Shown here: positions 53,381 through 63,788 of the stretch, piece by piece
Position numbering within the stretch: the stretch's first letter is position 1
Layout: the number at the start of each line of letters is the position of its first letter
NCBI GenBank assembly: GCA_021324735.1
Contig: JAJPIO010000018.1
Location: forward strand, 186,001-250,000
Reading direction: 5' to 3'
Source of the DNA: Bacteroidota bacterium
GTDB lineage: Bacteria; Bacteroidota; Ignavibacteria; Palsa-1295
DNA: 64,000 nt
Position numbers and translations under genes: made by a program
Notes under the pieces: model-generated
What the model was told of the DNA's origin: nothing
The model's input: the letters and a program-made list of their open reading frames with translations, nothing else
Databases searched by the model: none

Positions 53381-53449
53381 CTATTGGATTTTCAGGAAAA
53401 TCCTTATTGGATTCTTAGGAGAATGCTTATTGGATCTTCAAGCGAACAT
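53381..53449. repeat. Three 23-bp imperfect tandem repeats across the sprA stop
   Basis: Copies at 53381-53403, 53404-53426 and 53427-53449 share the core TATTGGAT. Copies 1 and 2 match at 18 of 23 positions, and copies 2 and 3 at 15. Copy 3 is the sprA 3' end with its TAA. Copy 1 contains a palindrome GGATTTTC-AG-GAAAATCC at 53386-53403. No U-tract follows it, so a terminator role is doubtful. Confidence 0.75.
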
Positions 53450-56400
53450 CGAATCCTGCTTCGATAAGGCGCGTCGGAGGGCTGATAAGTCCGCTGGCTG
53501 CCGGCGTCGTACGCTCGTAGCGGTAGAACGCTTCCATCGTAAGCTGGGAGCTGACATCGTAGCGGACGCGCGGCTCGATCGTCGTCTTGGTGAGTCCGCC
53601 GTTACTGATGCCGTCGGCACCTACCTGATCGATCGACCAGAAATTGTAATAGCTATCGGCCGAGATCGTTTGGCTAAGGGTGAAGCTTGCACCAAATTGA
53701 TTTTTAAGGTTGAGCTTGAAGAACGGTATGGAAAGACCTTCGCGAGTGAAGTTCGCGGTAATACCGAACGTTGTTGAAAGTCGCTTAGTAATACGCGTCG
53801 AGGCATAGTCAGCGGCCCACTCCGTTTGAGTATCATAGTTGAGGCTCGAGGTCAGTCGTCCACCCCACAATTTATCCCACGACATATCGAATGCGATAAG
53901 CGGACGGAATCCGTAGACGATCGTTTGCAGCGATGTAAGCGTCAAAGAGTCGCCAGGGTCCTGCCTAAACGAGCGGCGATACGTACCGTTGTATGCATTA
54001 CGAATACTCGCATGATCGGCAAAGCTGAAGAACGGCAGCTTTTCAAGACCAGACCAGCTAAACGAATAGTTAAGCCGTGGCAAATACTCACGGAGCATAC
54101 TAGTAAAGAGTGGAAGCGTTTCGAATCCTTGCATGAACGCCTCGCGCTCGATACGATTATGCACTTCCGGCGCTAGCGAATCGCGAGCATTCTGATAATT
54201 AACTAGATTGCGGCCTTCTGCCGCTGCTTCCGCATCAACTTTTTCTTTATAGAGTTCGCCCACTCGTATGATCCCGCTCTGCAATACGCTCGAACCAATG
54301 AACGGGAGCGGTGGGATCGAGAAGAACGTACGTGAGACATCGCCACCCTTCGCTGCATACATGAGCGAATCCTGACCGAAGCTATTGATATGGAGAGCAT
54401 CATGCTCATCATAGCCGAACGAGACTTTCCAGTTCAGGTTGATCGAAGCGCCGTTCCATAAGGGGCGGCTCGTCGAGAGTTCAAAGTTATTTGTCTCGTT
54501 GAACGCATCAGTTACATCGGTCGAACCACCGAACGGATCGGCAGCGCGAAGACCATGTCGTACCGAGAACGACAGGAATGGAAATGTCGGAAGCCAATGG
54601 AAGAGTAAACGACCAGCGGGATCAGTAATGAGCCCTAACTGATACGCACGTGAGGGTCCATTCTGATCGTCCTCGGGCGCGAAAAATCCGCGAGCAAGGA
54701 AGTTCGTAATGCCCGACCCTGTCCCGGCAAGCGCATTATTCAAACTCGAATTCGTCTGCGTAAAATTGAACCGCGTACCGTTCCAATCGAAGAGCGGCTT
54801 TTGAATGATATCCTGAGCCAGCTCTTTAAGTGTGATCGGCGGCTTCGATTCTGCCATTTCCGTGGGCACTTCTACTGGCGGCGCCTCCGGCGTAATGACC
54901 GTATCGACGACAAACTCGCGATCGGGCATACCGGCTGTACCAACACCACGGCTGTGTACTTTGCCGACCGTATCCAGTGGCGCTGTTACTGCCGGACGGT
55001 GAAGAGTATCCGTAATGTACTTATTACGTCCGAGAGGATTCGGTTGCATTTGCGGGCGCATCTCTTCTCCACGCTCCACTGGATTACGAGGTTCGTTACG
55101 TGGACGCGGCATCGGCGACTCGCGCTCCTCTGCGCCATGCTCTGGAATTTCTTCCGGCACCATACCGAGCTGCGTACGATCCCGGCCACGAACCCCACGC
55201 TGCGGCTGCTCCTCTGCCACCGGCTTACCGAATAGCATCACGCCCAGATCGCGTACGTTAAGTTCAAGTCCCGTAGTAATAGTATTATTCCATGCTCCCT
55301 GCTTGGCATTCTGCAGGTTCGTTTGTGCATTCAGCCACCGGTACTCAACACGATAATCGAACACAGGCCGCACCAATTTTTCGAGACCGAACAAGCCCGG
55401 CAAGCGTGGGAATGTGCTCATGTGAAGCTTCTGGCTTGCATTGTAATCAACGCCTGGCCGAACGAGCGCGCCATCTTTGAAAAAGATATCGCGCATAATA
55501 TCGCTCACATTACGCTGGTAATAATAGATGCTATCGTAGTTATAGATCGGATTCCCGTTCGCATCCAGTGTTGTCGGCTGATTGAACTGGCCGTAGGTTT
55601 CGAGGCCAGCAAGATTGCTCGAGACGTCGAGCGAATAATCGAAGTTCGGCGAAAGCATACCACCTTCGAACGGCTTCCAATTGATCTGCATACCACGCGT
55701 TGCCGTGAATACACGGTTGATGAGCGGCACCCGGCTCCTCAAAACATCCAACGTATCTTCTGTTGTAGATCCTTCTGGAGGAAGCGTGAGCGTTGTGATC
55801 CTGCTTAACTGATGGTCGCGGCCACGAGTAGCAGCAACGGCAAAGGAGACGTTATTCGGTAATAAGTTTACGGTCCAATTGGCATAGGGACCGATCAGGA
55901 TCGTTGTATTCCCAAACCATCGGAATGGAGTGAGCCCAAGACCAGGCAATTGCGGCAGTGAATACCGTGCGGAAGCCGTCCACGACCACGTTCGATCGAA
56001 CTCGAGCTGTGGCGAGCGCAAGAATGCCTCTCCATAGCCGAAGCCAAACGTCAGGCGATTAACAAGCGCAGGAATAAGAAAGAACGTACCCGGAAAGCGA
56101 AGTTCGATATCACTGAGACCAATAGAATTCTTGATCTGCAGCGTCTCATTATTGACATTGAGTGAATCGATAATGGCCTGCTTTTGCGTCGCGTTTAGGG
56201 TATCAGTGGCATTCACTGCCGCGATCGCGTCATCGAGCGCGACATCCGTATTAACGATATACTTTGGACGCAGGATCGACTCCGCGTGCGAAATGGTGAG
56301 CGGCAATTTCGATTGCTTATCCTCCATCCATTTCGGTAGCAGCTTCTCCATCGAGAATTCGCCAGTGACGTTCCAATTAATGTTGGTTGAGCGAGTGGTA

Positions 56401-59400
56401 TTAAAGCGCTCATCCACACGATGGAAATCGGCGCTTTCGTCGATCATACCGGCCGTGATGCGGCCAAACTCCGCGAGCTTTAGCTGCGTCGAGCCATTCC
56501 ACGCAAGCCCCGGCTTATCGTTCGCATCGAGCAACCGGAGCTCATCCCACCAGATGTCGGTATTGAGATCATTTTTGCCTGTCTCGTTTTGCATTCCGAG
56601 TACAAAGTAGGGAGCATTGGTAACCGTTGGGCGACCAACAACATGATACTCTGCACCCGGCACATCATTCTGAACCGCAATGTACTTCGATTCATACTGA
56701 TTCGCGCCCATTTGCGACTTGATGTTGATCAGGGTGCTAAAATCGATATGTATGTTCTGCCAACCTCCAACCAACGGACGTCGATACTCGTAATAGTCAT
56801 ATTGATCGGTACCAAAACGAACATACACCCATACCCGATTAATAGTATCTTTTACCGAACCTAAGGAAGCCGTGGGAAGCGTTGCGGAATCCCCGTGTAC
56901 CCATATCGCCATTGAACGATAATTAAAAATATCGTTCGGTGTTGGAAAGATACGCTGTGCTTCGCGGCGCCCCGTATCTTCAATATGGGAAAGCTGCATG
57001 TTAAGCGATTGCTCGTTACCCTGTATATATCCTTGTCCGGCTGGGATCGTCGCTGCCGCTGCTCCGGGTGGTGTATGGTAAAAGGTCGGGCTGCCTCCGT
57101 TTTCTTCAATATTAACGTAGTTGACCTTGAGCGATGTATCCGCAATGGGATTTTGTGCATTCAATCCTACCGTACCACGAGTCCACTGACTGCCGACGAG
57201 CATGAATTCATATAGCCGGAAGCTTACGGACTTTTGCACGCCCTTCATCCACAAGCGATAGTACGAAATATTACTGAATGTACTATCCTGCGTACCAACG
57301 ATCCGCTTGAAATCCGCTAACGGTACCCGAAGTTGATACCATGTATTATTCGTATTACCGATGATGTACTTATTCTTCGCCATATTGAGTGGAATCTCGT
57401 ACTCATAGTATCCATCCTGCAAGTCGACCGTGCCGTTTCCATTCAAGTCCTCATTATCGGGCTTGAGGCCAGAGTTTGCATCATTTTCGTTGCCCTCCTG
57501 TCCGTTGACGAAATTTGGATACGCATTATCGATGCTATAATCGTCGTTGCTCGGATCGGATGTATTGAACGCGGTCTGCTTTCCCGGACCGTTCTGGCTA
57601 AAGAATACCCTTTCCGAATCGTCGGTCATACCATCGAGGCCAATATCTTCGCCCGGATCGTAACGGCCGTTACCATTCTTATCTTCGTTCTCGAGGCGTT
57701 TATCCGGGATAATGTCTTCCGACATTTGACCTAGATCGAAGCGAACGGTCGCACTATCGAGATCACCAGGATCGATACCGCGAACCTGTATCCAGAACTC
57801 CACCGCATCGGTGTTCGTAGCAGGCACGTTGAGACCCGGAGCATATTGCATGAGCCCGCCCCACATCTCCTTACTATTTAAGTAGGTCGCATCGGGATAG
57901 GGATTGTAAATACCAGGCTTGCTGGGATCGAACGTAATGTCCATGACCTGCGCGGTCTCGCTTGCCGTCGCCGTTTGTTTATTCGGTTTGATCTCGTGAA
58001 TATCCGGCAACTGCTGCGGTACGGACCAGATCGTCTTCATCTTCAACCGGTTCAACTCGTTATTCCAATAGAGTGAATCGGGATTACTTAGCGAGGGATG
58101 CATCGCCTGAAAAACGCTATCTCCCGGTTGCGATGAAGGCACCCAACGGCCGTAATTAAGGTAGAGAGGAAATTCGTTAAGACCACCTTCAAAATCATCC
58201 AGGTACGCAATGGAAGCCCCATTATCCACGTCCATCGGCGATTTCTCCGTATTCGGATTCGGGATCGAAAGTGCAGCATCGCCGCGAATGCTTAGCTCGG
58301 ATTTATCCTTCAGATTGAAGAACGGCAAGACATTCAACGCATCGGTGACGAACGGCGCATCGAACTTATAGCTGCCATCGGCGCCCCAGATCCAATTCGA
58401 GAGTGGTTCTTCGCCTTGCCGTGTCTTGAGCGTCGGCAAGTGCATCGAGTAATTCATCAGGGTTGTACCGATGACGCCTCGCGGGTTCGCGCCTGCATCG
58501 AAGAGCGGCACTTCGGCACGAAGACCAAGAATATTCTTCGTTGCATTCGTAAAAATATCGTGAACGTCGTACTCGACGTTGATCGCACCGGTATTGATAA
58601 GATCGGAGCGAAGAATAGTGACGGTACCAGAGTTATAATCGACACGGAAATCCTGCCCTTCAGCGAGCGGCGTGCCGCCGATCGTCACTCGTACGCTTCC
58701 CTCTACCAGATTGAACGCGTTGAGATTAAGCGTTGAGGAGATACCACCTGTGAATGTGACGTTGATCGAAACAAGCTTTGTTTCCCGTTGACGAAGCACA
58801 TCCTGAATTTGAGTGTATATCTCGGGCAAATAGAAGCTGGTATCGAACTGAAATTTCTGATCTCCTTCTGCTCGCGCTTTTGCTAACTGGGCATTTTCGT
58901 AGGCGGCCATTGTTTTGCCGAAGGGCTCCAGATAGGGAAAGATAAGGGTACCCGTTCTCTTATCTACAATATAGCCTTGCCCGAATTGGCTGTTGAAATT
59001 ACTTCCAAAATCTACCAATCCATCCGGTGTTTTGTCTGCTGGAGCCGAATTGTTATATCGGTCGAGGCCAGTTACAGAAATGGCCTTGAGCGCTTTTTGA
59101 CGAGGGGCAAACGCCGGATATTCTGCCTGATGACCTCCCGGTTTTTGATCGATGATTCTCGCAGAGAATCCTTTGTCGTCGAAATTGACACCACCAATAT
59201 AGTAGGTGTTCTTAACAATATTTGCCCATCCCTGAGAACCTGAGTTTTTAAACGTCCCTACGGGCTTGATCAATTTTAAAACAATGGAAGTATCGGACGT
59301 CCCTTGTTCACCATATTGTAAATATGGTGCCGTTCCATTCTTAGCCGTTTGATAGCTAACTGCGAGATCCGAGTTAATGTCGTCCGGCTCCTGACTAAGC

Positions 59401-60860
59401 ACCAAGATGCCGGTATACTGATCTACATAATAGCGATTGGTATCTAATTGAAGCCAATACCCCGGGACTCCACCGGGAGGAGGATTCGCACTTTGTGTAC
59501 GATAGTTGGCTGGATAGGTTGTGTTTGCCAGAATTCCCTTTAGATCATAATATGCAATTCCATACCGCCGTCTTGGATCGGTCAAGTTAGTTGTTCGTAC
59601 CCAAACTTGAACACTCTTTGGATCACCTATATACTCGCTTCCGGTCCCAGTAACAGCATTAACATTCGGAGGCAACGTCGAGTAGTAAGGTTCGTAGAAT
59701 TTGATGAATGAGGTATCGAGCCAGAACCTGTTACGTCGATATTCCCACGGCTTGATAATATGTTCGCTGGTGGTACCGGAGCCACCGCCAAACGATTTGC
59801 TTTGGCGCTCCCCTTTCTTCTGAGCTGCGAGCGTTGTAATATATACCGGTCCGAACCGCGAGACTGCTTTTAATCCGAAGAGGTCCTGCTGTGAGCCAAT
59901 ATATTGCGAAGGTACATTCCACGTTACGTTACCGGCGTCGAACTCCTGAATGATCTCATCGGGGAAACCGGTGTAATTGAATTTAAGAAGATTATCGAAC
60001 TGGAACATTCGGTCCGAACCCCAGTCAGCACCGATCTTCAGTTTATCACCGATGGTCCCGTTGGTCGAGACGTTGATCTCCTGTTTGAAGTTAAGTCCCG
60101 TTTCAGAGCCGAAAAAGTTTGCGCCAGCCGTTGCATAGGTTTGCTGATCGCGGTACGCCAGGTGCACCGCCACATCACCATTGATTCGGAGATTGATCGA
60201 AGGCCGCCCAAAGATCGTTGGTACCACGCTGGGTGGTATCGGAATTTGGATCGTGTTATAATCGCCGAGAATTCCCGTCGTTGCCTCGACGCTCTTACCG
60301 GTATCGTACTGCTTGTGCATCGCAGCGCGGTAGCCGTTCTCTAACTGTTCTTCCTCTTGCTGCTTTAAATAGACATCCAGAGCGTTCTCACTGGGAATGC
60401 GAGTATCGCCTCCTAAAAATTGATCGTGCTGGATCACATTACCGGCAGAATCGAATTCGACCGTCCGTTTAACAGGCGAATTCAGAAATCCGGGAAGTTC
60501 TGGTCGCTCGGGTGATACCGCTGGTGAAGGCTCTTCAGGCGGCGGCGGCGTAACGACGATCTGCCCTTTGGTCGTATCCGGCCCTTGGAATAATTTTGAG
60601 AACTGGCCGAATAAATTAGTGACCTTGTGAGAAACAGAATCGTATTGCGTTGAAAGAAAACCCTTGGAGGTATCCTGGGCGGCGAGTGAGGTATCGCGGA
60701 GACCCGGGTTCGTCTCGTTTTTTTCGATGTTCTTCGGCTTGCGGCAGGAATCAAGCGACGCGAGTGTAAACACGAGGACCATGGCGAGGCCAATGCTTTG
60801 GTACCCCGTCATACGGCGCCACGCGTTGCGTCTAGTGGATAAGTTCGGAATCCCTCTCAC
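53427..60860 (-). CDS. sprA: T9SS outer-membrane translocon SprA
   Basis: A ~2,477-residue protein, the usual size for SprA/Sov, which forms the giant beta-barrel pore of the type IX secretion system. Recognised marks: RPSINLRINGDVAVHLAYRD near the plug, RAEVPLFDAG..., GASIAYLDDFEGG, and long stretches of alternating aromatic strands up to the end (SGLISPPTRLIEAGFDVRLKIQ). A signal region (RRNAWRRMTGYQSIGLAMVLVFTLASLDSC) with Arg-rich n-region precedes the chain, with a possible lipidation site at the Cys. Starts: the ATG at 60812 lacks the basic n-region; I prefer the GTG at 60858-60860. A Pro/Arg/Glu-rich, low-complexity insert (about base 55000-55200) is unusual for the barrel. It runs toward the thiamine operon. 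Confidence 0.95.
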   Translation of the reverse strand: MRGIPNLSTRRNAWRRMTGYQSIGLAMVLVFTLASLDSCRKPKNIEKNETNPGLRDTSLAAQDTSKGFLSTQYDSVSHKVTNLFGQFSKLFQGPDTTKGQIVVTPPPPEEPSPAVSPERPELPGFLNSPVKRTVEFDSAGNVIQHDQFLGGDTRIPSENALDVYLKQQEEEQLENGYRAAMHKQYDTGKSVEATTGILGDYNTIQIPIPPSVVPTIFGRPSINLRINGDVAVHLAYRDQQTYATAGANFFGSETGLNFKQEINVSTNGTIGDKLKIGADWGSDRMFQFDNLLKFNYTGFPDEIIQEFDAGNVTWNVPSQYIGSQQDLFGLKAVSRFGPVYITTLAAQKKGERQSKSFGGGSGTTSEHIIKPWEYRRNRFWLDTSFIKFYEPYYSTLPPNVNAVTGTGSEYIGDPKSVQVWVRTTNLTDPRRRYGIAYYDLKGILANTTYPANYRTQSANPPPGGVPGYWLQLDTNRYYVDQYTGILVLSQEPDDINSDLAVSYQTAKNGTAPYLQYGEQGTSDTSIVLKLIKPVGTFKNSGSQGWANIVKNTYYIGGVNFDDKGFSARIIDQKPGGHQAEYPAFAPRQKALKAISVTGLDRYNNSAPADKTPDGLVDFGSNFNSQFGQGYIVDKRTGTLIFPYLEPFGKTMAAYENAQLAKARAEGDQKFQFDTSFYLPEIYTQIQDVLRQRETKLVSINVTFTGGISSTLNLNAFNLVEGSVRVTIGGTPLAEGQDFRVDYNSGTVTILRSDLINTGAINVEYDVHDIFTNATKNILGLRAEVPLFDAGANPRGVIGTTLMNYSMHLPTLKTRQGEEPLSNWIWGADGSYKFDAPFVTDALNVLPFFNLKDKSELSIRGDAALSIPNPNTEKSPMDVDNGASIAYLDDFEGGLNEFPLYLNYGRWVPSSQPGDSVFQAMHPSLSNPDSLYWNNELNRLKMKTIWSVPQQLPDIHEIKPNKQTATASETAQVMDITFDPSKPGIYNPYPDATYLNSKEMWGGLMQYAPGLNVPATNTDAVEFWIQVRGIDPGDLDSATVRFDLGQMSEDIIPDKRLENEDKNGNGRYDPGEDIGLDGMTDDSERVFFSQNGPGKQTAFNTSDPSNDDYSIDNAYPNFVNGQEGNENDANSGLKPDNEDLNGNGTVDLQDGYYEYEIPLNMAKNKYIIGNTNNTWYQLRVPLADFKRIVGTQDSTFSNISYYRLWMKGVQKSVSFRLYEFMLVGSQWTRGTVGLNAQNPIADTSLKVNYVNIEENGGSPTFYHTPPGAAAATIPAGQGYIQGNEQSLNMQLSHIEDTGRREAQRIFPTPNDIFNYRSMAIWVHGDSATLPTASLGSVKDTINRVWVYVRFGTDQYDYYEYRRPLVGGWQNIHIDFSTLINIKSQMGANQYESKYIAVQNDVPGAEYHVVGRPTVTNAPYFVLGMQNETGKNDLNTDIWWDELRLLDANDKPGLAWNGSTQLKLAEFGRITAGMIDESADFHRVDERFNTTRSTNINWNVTGEFSMEKLLPKWMEDKQSKLPLTISHAESILRPKYIVNTDVALDDAIAAVNATDTLNATQKQAIIDSLNVNNETLQIKNSIGLSDIELRFPGTFFLIPALVNRLTFGFGYGEAFLRSPQLEFDRTWSWTASARYSLPQLPGLGLTPFRWFGNTTILIGPYANWTVNLLPNNVSFAVAATRGRDHQLSRITTLTLPPEGSTTEDTLDVLRSRVPLINRVFTATRGMQINWKPFEGGMLSPNFDYSLDVSSNLAGLETYGQFNQPTTLDANGNPIYNYDSIYYYQRNVSDIMRDIFFKDGALVRPGVDYNASQKLHMSTFPRLPGLFGLEKLVRPVFDYRVEYRWLNAQTNLQNAKQGAWNNTITTGLELNVRDLGVMLFGKPVAEEQPQRGVRGRDRTQLGMVPEEIPEHGAEERESPMPRPRNEPRNPVERGEEMRPQMQPNPLGRNKYITDTLHRPAVTAPLDTVGKVHSRGVGTAGMPDREFVVDTVITPEAPPVEVPTEMAESKPPITLKELAQDIIQKPLFDWNGTRFNFTQTNSSLNNALAGTGSGITNFLARGFFAPEDDQNGPSRAYQLGLITDPAGRLLFHWLPTFPFLSFSVRHGLRAADPFGGSTDVTDAFNETNNFELSTSRPLWNGASINLNWKVSFGYDEHDALHINSFGQDSLMYAAKGGDVSRTFFSIPPLPFIGSSVLQSGIIRVGELYKEKVDAEAAAEGRNLVNYQNARDSLAPEVHNRIEREAFMQGFETLPLFTSMLREYLPRLNYSFSWSGLEKLPFFSFADHASIRNAYNGTYRRSFRQDPGDSLTLTSLQTIVYGFRPLIAFDMSWDKLWGGRLTSSLNYDTQTEWAADYASTRITKRLSTTFGITANFTREGLSIPFFKLNLKNQFGASFTLSQTISADSYYNFWSIDQVGADGISNGGLTKTTIEPRVRYDVSSQLTMEAFYRYERTTPAASGLISPPTRLIEAGFDVRLKIQ

Positions 60861-61031
60861 CAACGATACGATCGACTCACTTGCAGGATTATCATCCTAA
60901 TACGCCACACTGCGTCCGCCAGGCTCTTATAGCCCGAACGGACACTCCGCGCACGAACCGTGCACGGCATTTTTCTTCTTACATCAAGGTGCCCAGCCAA
61001 GTATGGGATGGGCGTTAAACGGTCACAAGGA

Positions 61032-61401: not shown

Positions 61402-61806
61402 ATGTCAAACATTAACTGGCTTGCAGTACTTGTCGGAGCGTTAGCGTACTTTTTTCTCGGATTCCTGTGGTTTCAGGTTCTTTTTGGCAAGACCTGGTCT
61501 CGGGAGCACGGAATGAAAATGGACACCCCACCCAGCGGATCCCAGATGGGCAAGCTTCTTTTCAAGAGCTTCTTAGGTAACTTATTGGCAGTAATTGCTT
61601 TAGCGCTTCTGATCAGCTATGCCCATGGCGGCGGCTGGATGCGTTGCGCGAAGATCGGGGCCGTCGCTGGGTTCGGCGTTGCCGGCGGTTCCTTCTGGAT
61701 GAATTACAACTGGCTCGGCAAATCCTTCCTTCTCTGGACGATCGATACTGCGTATTACACGCTTGGCGCCGCTATTGCCGGAGCCATTATAGGCGCCTGG
61801 GGCTAA
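61402..61806 (+). CDS. DUF1761 family membrane protein
   Basis: A 134-residue protein with four hydrophobic segments: NWLAVLVGALAYFFLGFLWF, NLLAVIALALLISYA, GAVAGFGVAGGSFWMNYN and TLGAAIAGAIIGAWG. The pattern with WLGKSFLLWTIDTAYY matches DUF1761. Function unknown. The frame is open 22 codons further upstream (to 61336), but the ATG at 61402 has the family N-terminus and follows the promoter. It is 80 bases before arsR. Confidence 0.8.
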   Translation: MSNINWLAVLVGALAYFFLGFLWFQVLFGKTWSREHGMKMDTPPSGSQMGKLLFKSFLGNLLAVIALALLISYAHGGGWMRCAKIGAVAGFGVAGGSFWMNYNWLGKSFLLWTIDTAYYTLGAAIAGAIIGAWG

Positions 61807-61852
61807 TCGTCCGATCGGTCTGACTCCTAAGAGCAAAAAACGCTTTTTAAAC

Positions 61853-61899
61853 ATGTAACCAAAAAGTTACATATATTTGTAACCAGATGGTTACAAATA
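61853..61899. promoter_or_regulatory. Double palindromic operator overlapping the arsR promoter and start codon
   Basis: Palindrome 1 (61853-61872) has 7-bp arms ATGTAAC/GTTACAT around 6 bases. Palindrome 2 (61874-61899) has perfect 11-bp arms TATTTGTAACC/GGTTACAAATA around AGAT. Centres are 24 bp apart. The -7 element TATATTTG (61872-61879) and the arsR ATG (61887-61889) both lie within it, so a bound ArsR dimer would block the promoter and the start. Confidence 0.85.
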
Positions 61900-62282
61900 C
61901 ACTCCGACGAGACCCCTTCCACGCGATCGCCGATCCGCATCGCCGCGCGATCCTGAGTCTGGTGGCGAAGGAACGTCTCACGCTCAATCGTGTGGCCGAG
62001 CACTTTACGATCAGCCGGCCCGCTATTTCCAAGCACATCAAAATTTTATCCGAAGCCGGACTTATCCGCATTGACCAACGCGGACGCGAGCGCTATTGCG
62101 AAGCAAAACTCGATGGACTGAATGAAGTCACCGATTGGATCGAAGAGTACAGAAAGCTTTGGGAAGCCCGCTTCGATCGGCTCGAACAGTATTTAGCAGA
62201 ACTTCAGGCGAAAGAAGCTAAGTCCCCTGCTCCGAAGAACATATCACCAATAACTCCTAAGAAACATGGCCGCCGAACATAA
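61887..62282 (+). CDS. ArsR-family transcriptional regulator
   Basis: A 131-residue winged-helix protein. The ArsR start DPFHAIADPHRRAILSLVAK, the recognition helix TISRPAISKHIKIL and a basic wing (RIDQRGRERYCEAKLD) are present. Only one Cys is present and no CxC/metal site is seen, so it belongs to the non-metal SdpR-like group that often pairs with SRPBCC proteins. The only in-frame ATG is at 61887; no SD is visible before it, and the predicted transcript starts within a few bases, so the message may be leaderless. It overlaps the next gene by 17 bases (or 4-base gap if the later start is used). Confidence 0.93.
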   Translation: MVTNTLRRDPFHAIADPHRRAILSLVAKERLTLNRVAEHFTISRPAISKHIKILSEAGLIRIDQRGRERYCEAKLDGLNEVTDWIEEYRKLWEARFDRLEQYLAELQAKEAKSPAPKNISPITPKKHGRRT

Positions 62283-62838
62283 TAAAATGAGTGTCGAACA
62301 AAATAAGATGACCATTGAAATTGCAGATCGAGAAGTAATTATGACTCGAGTCGTCAATGCTCCTCGAGAATTAGTATTCGAGGTATGGACAAATGCAGAA
62401 CACCTCTCTCGGTGGTTTGCCCCCCAGGGATTCGAGACCACGGCCGAAACCGATCCGCGACCTGGTGGCGCCTTTCGCATCGTGATGCACGCAACCGAAG
62501 CATTACCACCGGAATTTGCTGGCGATTATCCAATGAAAGGTATCTATCAGGAGTTTGTACCTCCTGAACGCATCGTCTTTACCAGCGATCTTTCCGAGCA
62601 CTCCGAGAAGTGGAAAGAACAATTGTTCGAACACTGTGGAACGAGAGGTGACGATGCCCTACTATCGGTGGCAACGGTAACGTTCGATGATCTTGGTGGC
62701 AAAACAAAGATCACCGTACGATCGAGATTTGCCTCCAACGCAATTCGAGATGGCTACGTAAAGACTGGCATGAACGAGGGATGGGAGCAGACCTTCGATC
62801 GACTTGCCTCATTGGTAAACGATCTTGCACGGCAATGA
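62266..62838 (+). CDS. SRPBCC (AHSA1-type) protein
   Basis: A 190-residue protein of the START-like SRPBCC fold: MTRVVNAPRELVFEVWTNAEHLSRWFAPQGFETTAE, RPGGAFRIVMH, VPPERIVFTSD, KTKITVRSRF, MNEGWEQTFDRLA. The fold forms a hydrophobic cavity for a small ligand. A second start, the ATG at 62287 (7 codons in), is also possible and lies 4 bases after arsR's stop. The ArsR-SRPBCC pair suggests a ligand-sensing detoxification role, as is common in such pairs. It overlaps the methyltransferase-like gene by 4 bases (ATGA). Confidence 0.92.
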   Translation: MAAEHNKMSVEQNKMTIEIADREVIMTRVVNAPRELVFEVWTNAEHLSRWFAPQGFETTAETDPRPGGAFRIVMHATEALPPEFAGDYPMKGIYQEFVPPERIVFTSDLSEHSEKWKEQLFEHCGTRGDDALLSVATVTFDDLGGKTKITVRSRFASNAIRDGYVKTGMNEGWEQTFDRLASLVNDLARQ

Positions 62839-63305
62839 GCGTAAAAAGCTGGCTGCATAACGAGCGTGGCGAGTGGTACGTGATCGTACAAATCGTACTA
62901 TTAACAATAGTTATGGCCTCGCCAAAGTGGGATGCGCAGCGCCTTGAAACGCCGATCGTCATTGTTGGCGGAATACTTTGCGTTATCGGCGCGTGCTTCT
63001 CACTCATCGGTGTGGCCGGTCTTGGCAAGAATTTATCGCCCTATCCAAAACCAAAAGAGGAATCGGAATTGATCGAACGTGGAGTCTACTCCATCGTGCG
63101 TCATCCGATCTATTGTGGCCTTATTCTTTTCGCATTTGGGTGGTCGTTCGCATGGGGCAGTTGGAGCGCTTTCTTTTTCGCGGTCGCGCTTTTTATCTTT
63201 TTCGATCTTAAATCACGAAAAGAAGAAGTGTGGCTCGATAAAAAATTCTCAACGTACCAGGACTACCGTCATCGGGTAAGAAAGCTTATTCCCTTTATCT
63301 ATTGA
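62835..63305 (+). CDS. Isoprenylcysteine carboxyl methyltransferase-like membrane protein
   Basis: A 156-residue protein. Three hydrophobic segments (IVQIVLLTIVMA, IVIVGGILCVIGACFSLIGVAGLG, FAFGWSFAWGSWSAFFFAVALFIFFDLK) and the family end VRHPIYCGLILFAFGWS...RKEEVWLDKKFSTYQDYRHRVRKLIP with RHPxY match the ICMT/PEMT group. Bacterial members methylate phospholipids or other lipids; the substrate is not known. The frame starts 18 codons earlier (62781), but the ATG at 62835 overlaps the SRPBCC stop (ATGA) and is preferred. Confidence 0.88.
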   Translation: MSVKSWLHNERGEWYVIVQIVLLTIVMASPKWDAQRLETPIVIVGGILCVIGACFSLIGVAGLGKNLSPYPKPKEESELIERGVYSIVRHPIYCGLILFAFGWSFAWGSWSAFFFAVALFIFFDLKSRKEEVWLDKKFSTYQDYRHRVRKLIPFIY

Positions 63306-63335: not shown

Positions 63336-63788
63336 ATGGGTAATAGCAATCGCGAGATCCGTTCGTCACGTTTGCTCGATGCACCGCGCGAGCTTGTGTG
63401 GAAAGCATTCACCGATCCCGAGCACATTAAACAATGGTGGGGGCCGAACGGCTTTACGAATACCATTCACAAAATGGATGTACGGCGCGGAGGCGAATGG
63501 AATTTTATTATGCACGGGCCCGATGGCACTAATTATAGAAATGAGATCCATTACGTTGAAGTAACGGCTCCCGAGCGGCTCGTACTCTCTCACGGACCGA
63601 CTCCTCGGTTTCAAATGACCATTGAACTGTTCGACCGAGGTTCTAAGACAGAAGTACACTGGTGCAATCTCTTCGAGACCGAAGAAGATTATAAGCGGGC
63701 TGTCGAGGTATTTCACGCTATCGAGGGACAGAAACAGACGATCGACCGATTGGAAAGCTATCTCAGTTCTAATTTTCAACCACACTAA
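63336..63788 (+). CDS. Second SRPBCC (AHSA1-type) protein
   Basis: A 150-residue SRPBCC protein, with SRLLDAPRELVWKAFTDPEHIKQWWGPNGF, RRGGEWNFIMHGPDG and APERLVLSHG. It resembles the 62266 protein at the same positions, so a paralogue pair flanks the methyltransferase-like gene. It is 30 bases after that gene; no own promoter is obvious. Confidence 0.93.
   Translation: MGNSNREIRSSRLLDAPRELVWKAFTDPEHIKQWWGPNGFTNTIHKMDVRRGGEWNFIMHGPDGTNYRNEIHYVEVTAPERLVLSHGPTPRFQMTIELFDRGSKTEVHWCNLFETEEDYKRAVEVFHAIEGQKQTIDRLESYLSSNFQPH

Follow-up and report, generated by a model that had tools for sequence, protein, structure and literature searches.

Two described self-repressors offer the closest comparisons for the arsR-family gene considered here, which lies in a 64,000-nucleotide stretch of DNA (the window). 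The first is the Rv2034-Rv2035 system of Mycobacterium tuberculosis, composed of an ArsR autorepressor and a partner with a polyketide_cyc2 domain (PMC3338718). The DNase footprint of Rv2034 extends from -30 to +3 on the coding strand, and the printed sequence ends in GTG (PMC3338718). The second is the acuR-acuI-dddL operon of Rhodobacter sphaeroides, which is leaderless, with a transcript that starts exactly at the AUG (PMC3017554). Together, these systems provide precedents for self-repressor sites that extend as far as the start codon and for self-repressor messages that lack a leader.

The window locus resembles Rv2034-Rv2035 in that a putative ArsR self-repressor shares an operon with a START/SRPBCC-type gene, and in having a palindrome with an N4 spacer, but Rv2034 has one palindrome, CCGTAAGT-N4-ACTTACGG, located before the start, uses a different half-site, and belongs to another phylum. 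With acuR, our locus shares a self-repressor operator that overlaps the promoter and the lack of a Shine-Dalgarno (SD) sequence. In contrast, AcuR is a TetR-family protein whose operator lies upstream of the ATG, and its message has no leader, versus the 2-3 nt predicted for the window arsR gene. ArsR double-operator promoters found throughout Bacteroidota (e.g. L047, L054 and L057 among the loci collected below) have the same protein family, the same half-sites, and a promoter box fused to the second operator. In these promoters, however, the start codon is downstream of the second operator rather than inside it, and a -33 TTTG is usually present. A partial literature search, which is a weak basis for claiming novelty, found no published ArsR gene whose start codon resides inside the operator core.

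The arsR locus and its double operator

The window gene (61887-62282, + strand) encodes a 131-aa product that scores above the curated cut-offs of the Pfam model HTH_5 (39.4 bits; cut-off 22) and of the NCBIfam ArsR/SmtB model NF033788 (65.8 bits; cut-off 55), which places it in the ArsR/SmtB family. Its score against the SdpR-type autorepressor model NF033789 (63.4 bits) is below the cut-off of 100 for that model. The protein has a single Cys (in RERYC), with no Cys-x-Cys and no Cys-rich metal-binding motif, and so the classic metal site is missing. The closest solved sequence is 3f6o, an uncharacterized ArsR protein.

Three genes follow arsR on the + strand, tightly spaced or overlapping: an AHSA1/SRPBCC-domain gene (62266-62838) that overlaps the 3′ end of arsR and is its presumed operon partner, a PEMT/ICMT-type membrane methyltransferase gene (62835-63305) that shares an ATGA overlap with the preceding AHSA1 gene, and a second AHSA1/SRPBCC-domain gene (63336-63788). 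Almost every relative examined likewise has AHSA1 genes downstream of the repressor. On the other side, a DUF1761 gene (61402-61806, + strand) ends 80 bp upstream of arsR. The window also carries, on the - strand, an ORF of 2478 aa (53427-60863) that we take to resemble the gliding/type IX secretion protein SprA.

Two palindromes of the GTAACC-N4-(G)GTTAC type lie on either side of the element TATATTTG (61872-61879, + strand), which fits the consensus TAHHTTTG for the -7 box of Bacteroidota sigma-ABfr promoters (PMC6847099). Operator 1 (op1; GTAACCAAAAAGTTAC, 61855-61870) is upstream of this box and has a single mismatch to GTAACC-N4-GGTTAC. The 16-bp core of operator 2 (op2; GTAACCAGATGGTTAC, 61879-61894) has perfect half-sites, and neither operator is assigned a strand. 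The pattern GTAACC-N3-8-GTTAC gives three strand-matches in the window versus a shuffle mean of 0.06, and at least three matches were found in 0 of 100 shuffles. The positions of the two palindromes, of TATATTTG and of the ATG agree with a preliminary description of this DNA. That description had also assigned perfect 11-bp arms to the second palindrome; the repeat is indeed perfect, but its arms are 12 nt long (61874-61885 and 61888-61899) around a 2-nt center, forming an extended inverted repeat at 61874-61899 (again with no strand). The -33 TTTG of a sigma-ABfr promoter is absent from the window locus, where 61850-61853 reads AACA at the place of TTTG in relatives. A scan for sigma-70-type promoters was uninformative (three sites versus 2.7 in shuffles).

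Conservation of both palindromes in related genomes had been proposed as a check, and this expectation was borne out. We collected relatives from the family and class of the window organism and from GTDB genomes, yielding 106 non-redundant loci with the window locus counted. Op2 is present in 100 of these, and 74 of the 106 carry both operators, with op1 found 20-32 bp upstream of op2, most commonly at a spacing of 26 bp (24 at the window locus). In 68 of the 106 loci, a TAnnTTTG sequence ends on the first G of op2. The consensus over loci is TTTG-C-GTAACCgAatGGTTtC followed by TATATTTGTAACCgAttGGTTACAtAa, and the -33 TTTG appears beside op1 in most relatives. Two loci (L015 and L018) retain op2 without a recognizable op1. 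In three divergent paralogues (L025-L027), related palindromes are seen in an altered form, of the GTAGCC/GTAGTC type, as expected if protein and site had changed jointly.

Given its conservation across Bacteroidota, we regard the double operator as a real regulatory element and as part of an ancient ArsR promoter distributed throughout this phylum. A palindromic operator is located at the promoter of arsR itself and is conserved with the gene, as in a self-repressing ArsR operon. Judging by this phylogenetic footprinting, the promoter is probably self-repressed through binding of ArsR to op1 and op2.

Other palindromes were encountered during these searches. An ArsR paralogue in the same genome (near 7528 of L171, equal to L002; C8:97552) has a palindrome, ATATAAGT-TATT-ACTTATAT, that ends right at its ATG, and a nearly identical palindrome is found about 10 nt farther upstream in L028 and L029. 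Separately, the 16-mer GTAACCTTTAGGTTAC, which differs from the ArsR operator, occurs in clusters in this genome (e.g. C5:2514-3415, C16:218803-219106 and C7:262469, the C7 copy being in an ORF). We set it aside as a candidate regulon, given its clustering, its nearly fixed spacer, and the position of the inspected copy in an ORF near its start.

A start codon inside operator 2

As had been claimed earlier, ATG 61887 is the only possible conventional start and is not preceded by an SD: there is no in-frame ATG, GTG or TTG between the upstream stop codon TAA 61848 and ATG 61887, and no SD-like sequence is seen 5′ of this ATG. The op2 core spans codons 1 and 2 of arsR plus two bases of codon 3. 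The claim that the operator covers the first five codons was overstated, since even the extended repeat ends one base past the fourth codon.

In most relatives, translation starts at an ATG immediately 5′ of R-R-D and downstream of op2. The equivalent position in the window gene is codon 6 (61902-61904, + strand), which reads CTC and offers no start codon; in three members of the same family (G004, G007 and G008) it reads GCA. In all four of these genes, an ATG or GTG begins at op2 position 9, 7 nt past the box, and at the remaining box-bearing loci the start nearest R-R-D is 17-51 nt past the box. A class-wide pattern search for a start inside op2 matched four of 294 genomes, all from one family, with no match in the remaining 290 class genomes searched. 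Three further relatives (G011, G012 and G002) have the same op2-to-R-R-D distance as the window locus, 26 nt, and still carry the ancestral ATG, and thus substitutions without indels suffice to move the start. The protein tree is too poorly resolved to tell one origin of the op2 start from two. A start inside op2 is therefore supported, because the ancestral start codon has been lost and because the arrangement recurs in three relatives.

Initiation might instead use a non-canonical codon, with ATT 61875 and CTC 61902 as examples, the latter occupying the exact position of the ATG in relatives. We consider this very improbable. ATT 61875 is within the -7 box and upstream of the predicted transcription start, and the relatives that lack the ancestral ATG have GCA rather than a near-cognate codon at its position, while all of them carry ATG or GTG in op2.

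A separate question is whether the overlap matters, for the operator may simply happen to carry an in-frame RTG, with regulation unaffected. This neutral reading is compatible with a start inside op2, and we hold the chances to be evenly balanced. The ATG is built on a fixed G of the half-site, the spacing from op2 to R-R-D is the same as in relatives with the old start, and the arrangement is present in just four genomes of one family. Loss of the ancestral ATG in all four speaks against neutrality, but as there may be one or two shared origins, it is weak evidence for selection.

Leader length and probable leaderless genes

In Flavobacterium johnsoniae, transcription starts 4-5 nt past the TAHHTTTG -7 box, and the -33 element is likewise weak (PMC6847099). 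This spacing predicts transcription of arsR from 61884 or 61885 (+ strand), and hence a leader of 3 or 2 nt. The message, proposed earlier as possibly leaderless, would be approximately so: its start codon is indeed close to the predicted transcription start, but the 7 nt between box and ATG speak against a strictly leaderless message in this genome.

We surveyed box positions in a 2.265-Mb sample of the same genome (G000; loci between L129 and L248, plus the window) containing 1698 ORFs. TAnnTTTG ends 4, 5 or 6 nt before the start of 17, 10 and 9 genes, respectively (36 in total versus approximately 3 expected from a background of about one per position), and this excess makes it probable that many messages of this Kapaibacterium-related genome are leaderless. 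The genes with these spacings include what we presume, from N-terminal sequences, to be pheT, gatA, gatB and pyrF. At 7 nt, just outside the peak, arsR is the only gene among the 1698 ORFs. TAHHTTTG-N4-ATG likewise outnumbers TAHHTTTG-N9-ATG in most genomes of the genus and family, with little difference in G003 and none in G012, although ATGs that are not starts are included in these counts. Only a minority of mRNAs have very short leaders in the Bacteroidota that have been studied, with published figures of 5.5% leaderless mRNAs in F. psychrophilum and approximately 3.7% of leaders below 10 nt in B. thetaiotaomicron. A partial literature search found no study of leaderless genes in the Kapaibacterium-related lineage.

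Alternatively, arsR might be expressed mainly from a leadered transcript, through read-through from the DUF1761 gene or from another promoter, with the -7 box beside the ATG playing a minor role. The DUF1761 gene is on the same strand, no + strand terminator was found by scanning between it and arsR, and the -33 element is missing. Nevertheless, we judge this alternative unlikely: the locus retains a complete TAHHTTTG box at its conserved position, no SD precedes ATG 61887, and read-through RNA would place the ATG partly within a hairpin formed by op2. Folding predictions for such a longer transcript pair 61874-61884 with 61889-61899; the resulting hairpin of 11 bp (-12.2 kcal/mol, z -5.2) holds the first two bases of the AUG in its loop and the third in its stem, whereas the 5′ end of a transcript starting at 61885 is predicted to be unfolded. 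Op2 might then act at two levels, as a repressor site in DNA and as a fold around the AUG in read-through RNA, leaving the nearly leaderless mRNA made from the arsR promoter itself as the sole well-translated message. This dual role seems doubtful to us. The RNA hairpin follows from the DNA palindrome and provides no independent evidence of RNA function.

Relocation of the start under a fixed promoter

Our preferred explanation, to which we assign a probability of roughly 0.75, is a self-repressed arsR promoter that has remained in place while the start codon moved into op2, yielding a nearly leaderless mRNA. The promoter would serve an arsR-AHSA1-methyltransferase-AHSA1 operon that represses itself. 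ArsR dimers would occupy both operators: op1, on the upstream side of the -7 box, and op2, whose first base is the final G of that box and which extends over the predicted transcription start. The bound repressor would block RNA polymerase. In this lineage, substitutions abolished the ATG before R-R-D, and an ATG or GTG arose in the op2 spacer; this new start takes its G from the right half-site, where that base is fixed (GTAACCNN-RTG-GTTAC). With the start moved and the promoter still in place, the leader would now be only about 2-3 nt long, and the gene would be translated as a nearly leaderless message. Counting against this explanation are the 7-nt spacing, which is off the 4-6 nt peak of the genome, the missing -33 TTTG, the rarity of short leaders in studied Bacteroidota, and the lack of a recognizable op1 in L015 and L018.

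If this explanation is correct, the arsR case is a variant of ordinary self-repression, and the intermediate relatives document how a start codon can enter an operator by point substitutions under a fixed promoter, thereby leaving a formerly leadered gene with almost no leader. The same case pointed us to a strong signature of leaderless promoters in this Kapaibacterium-related genome.
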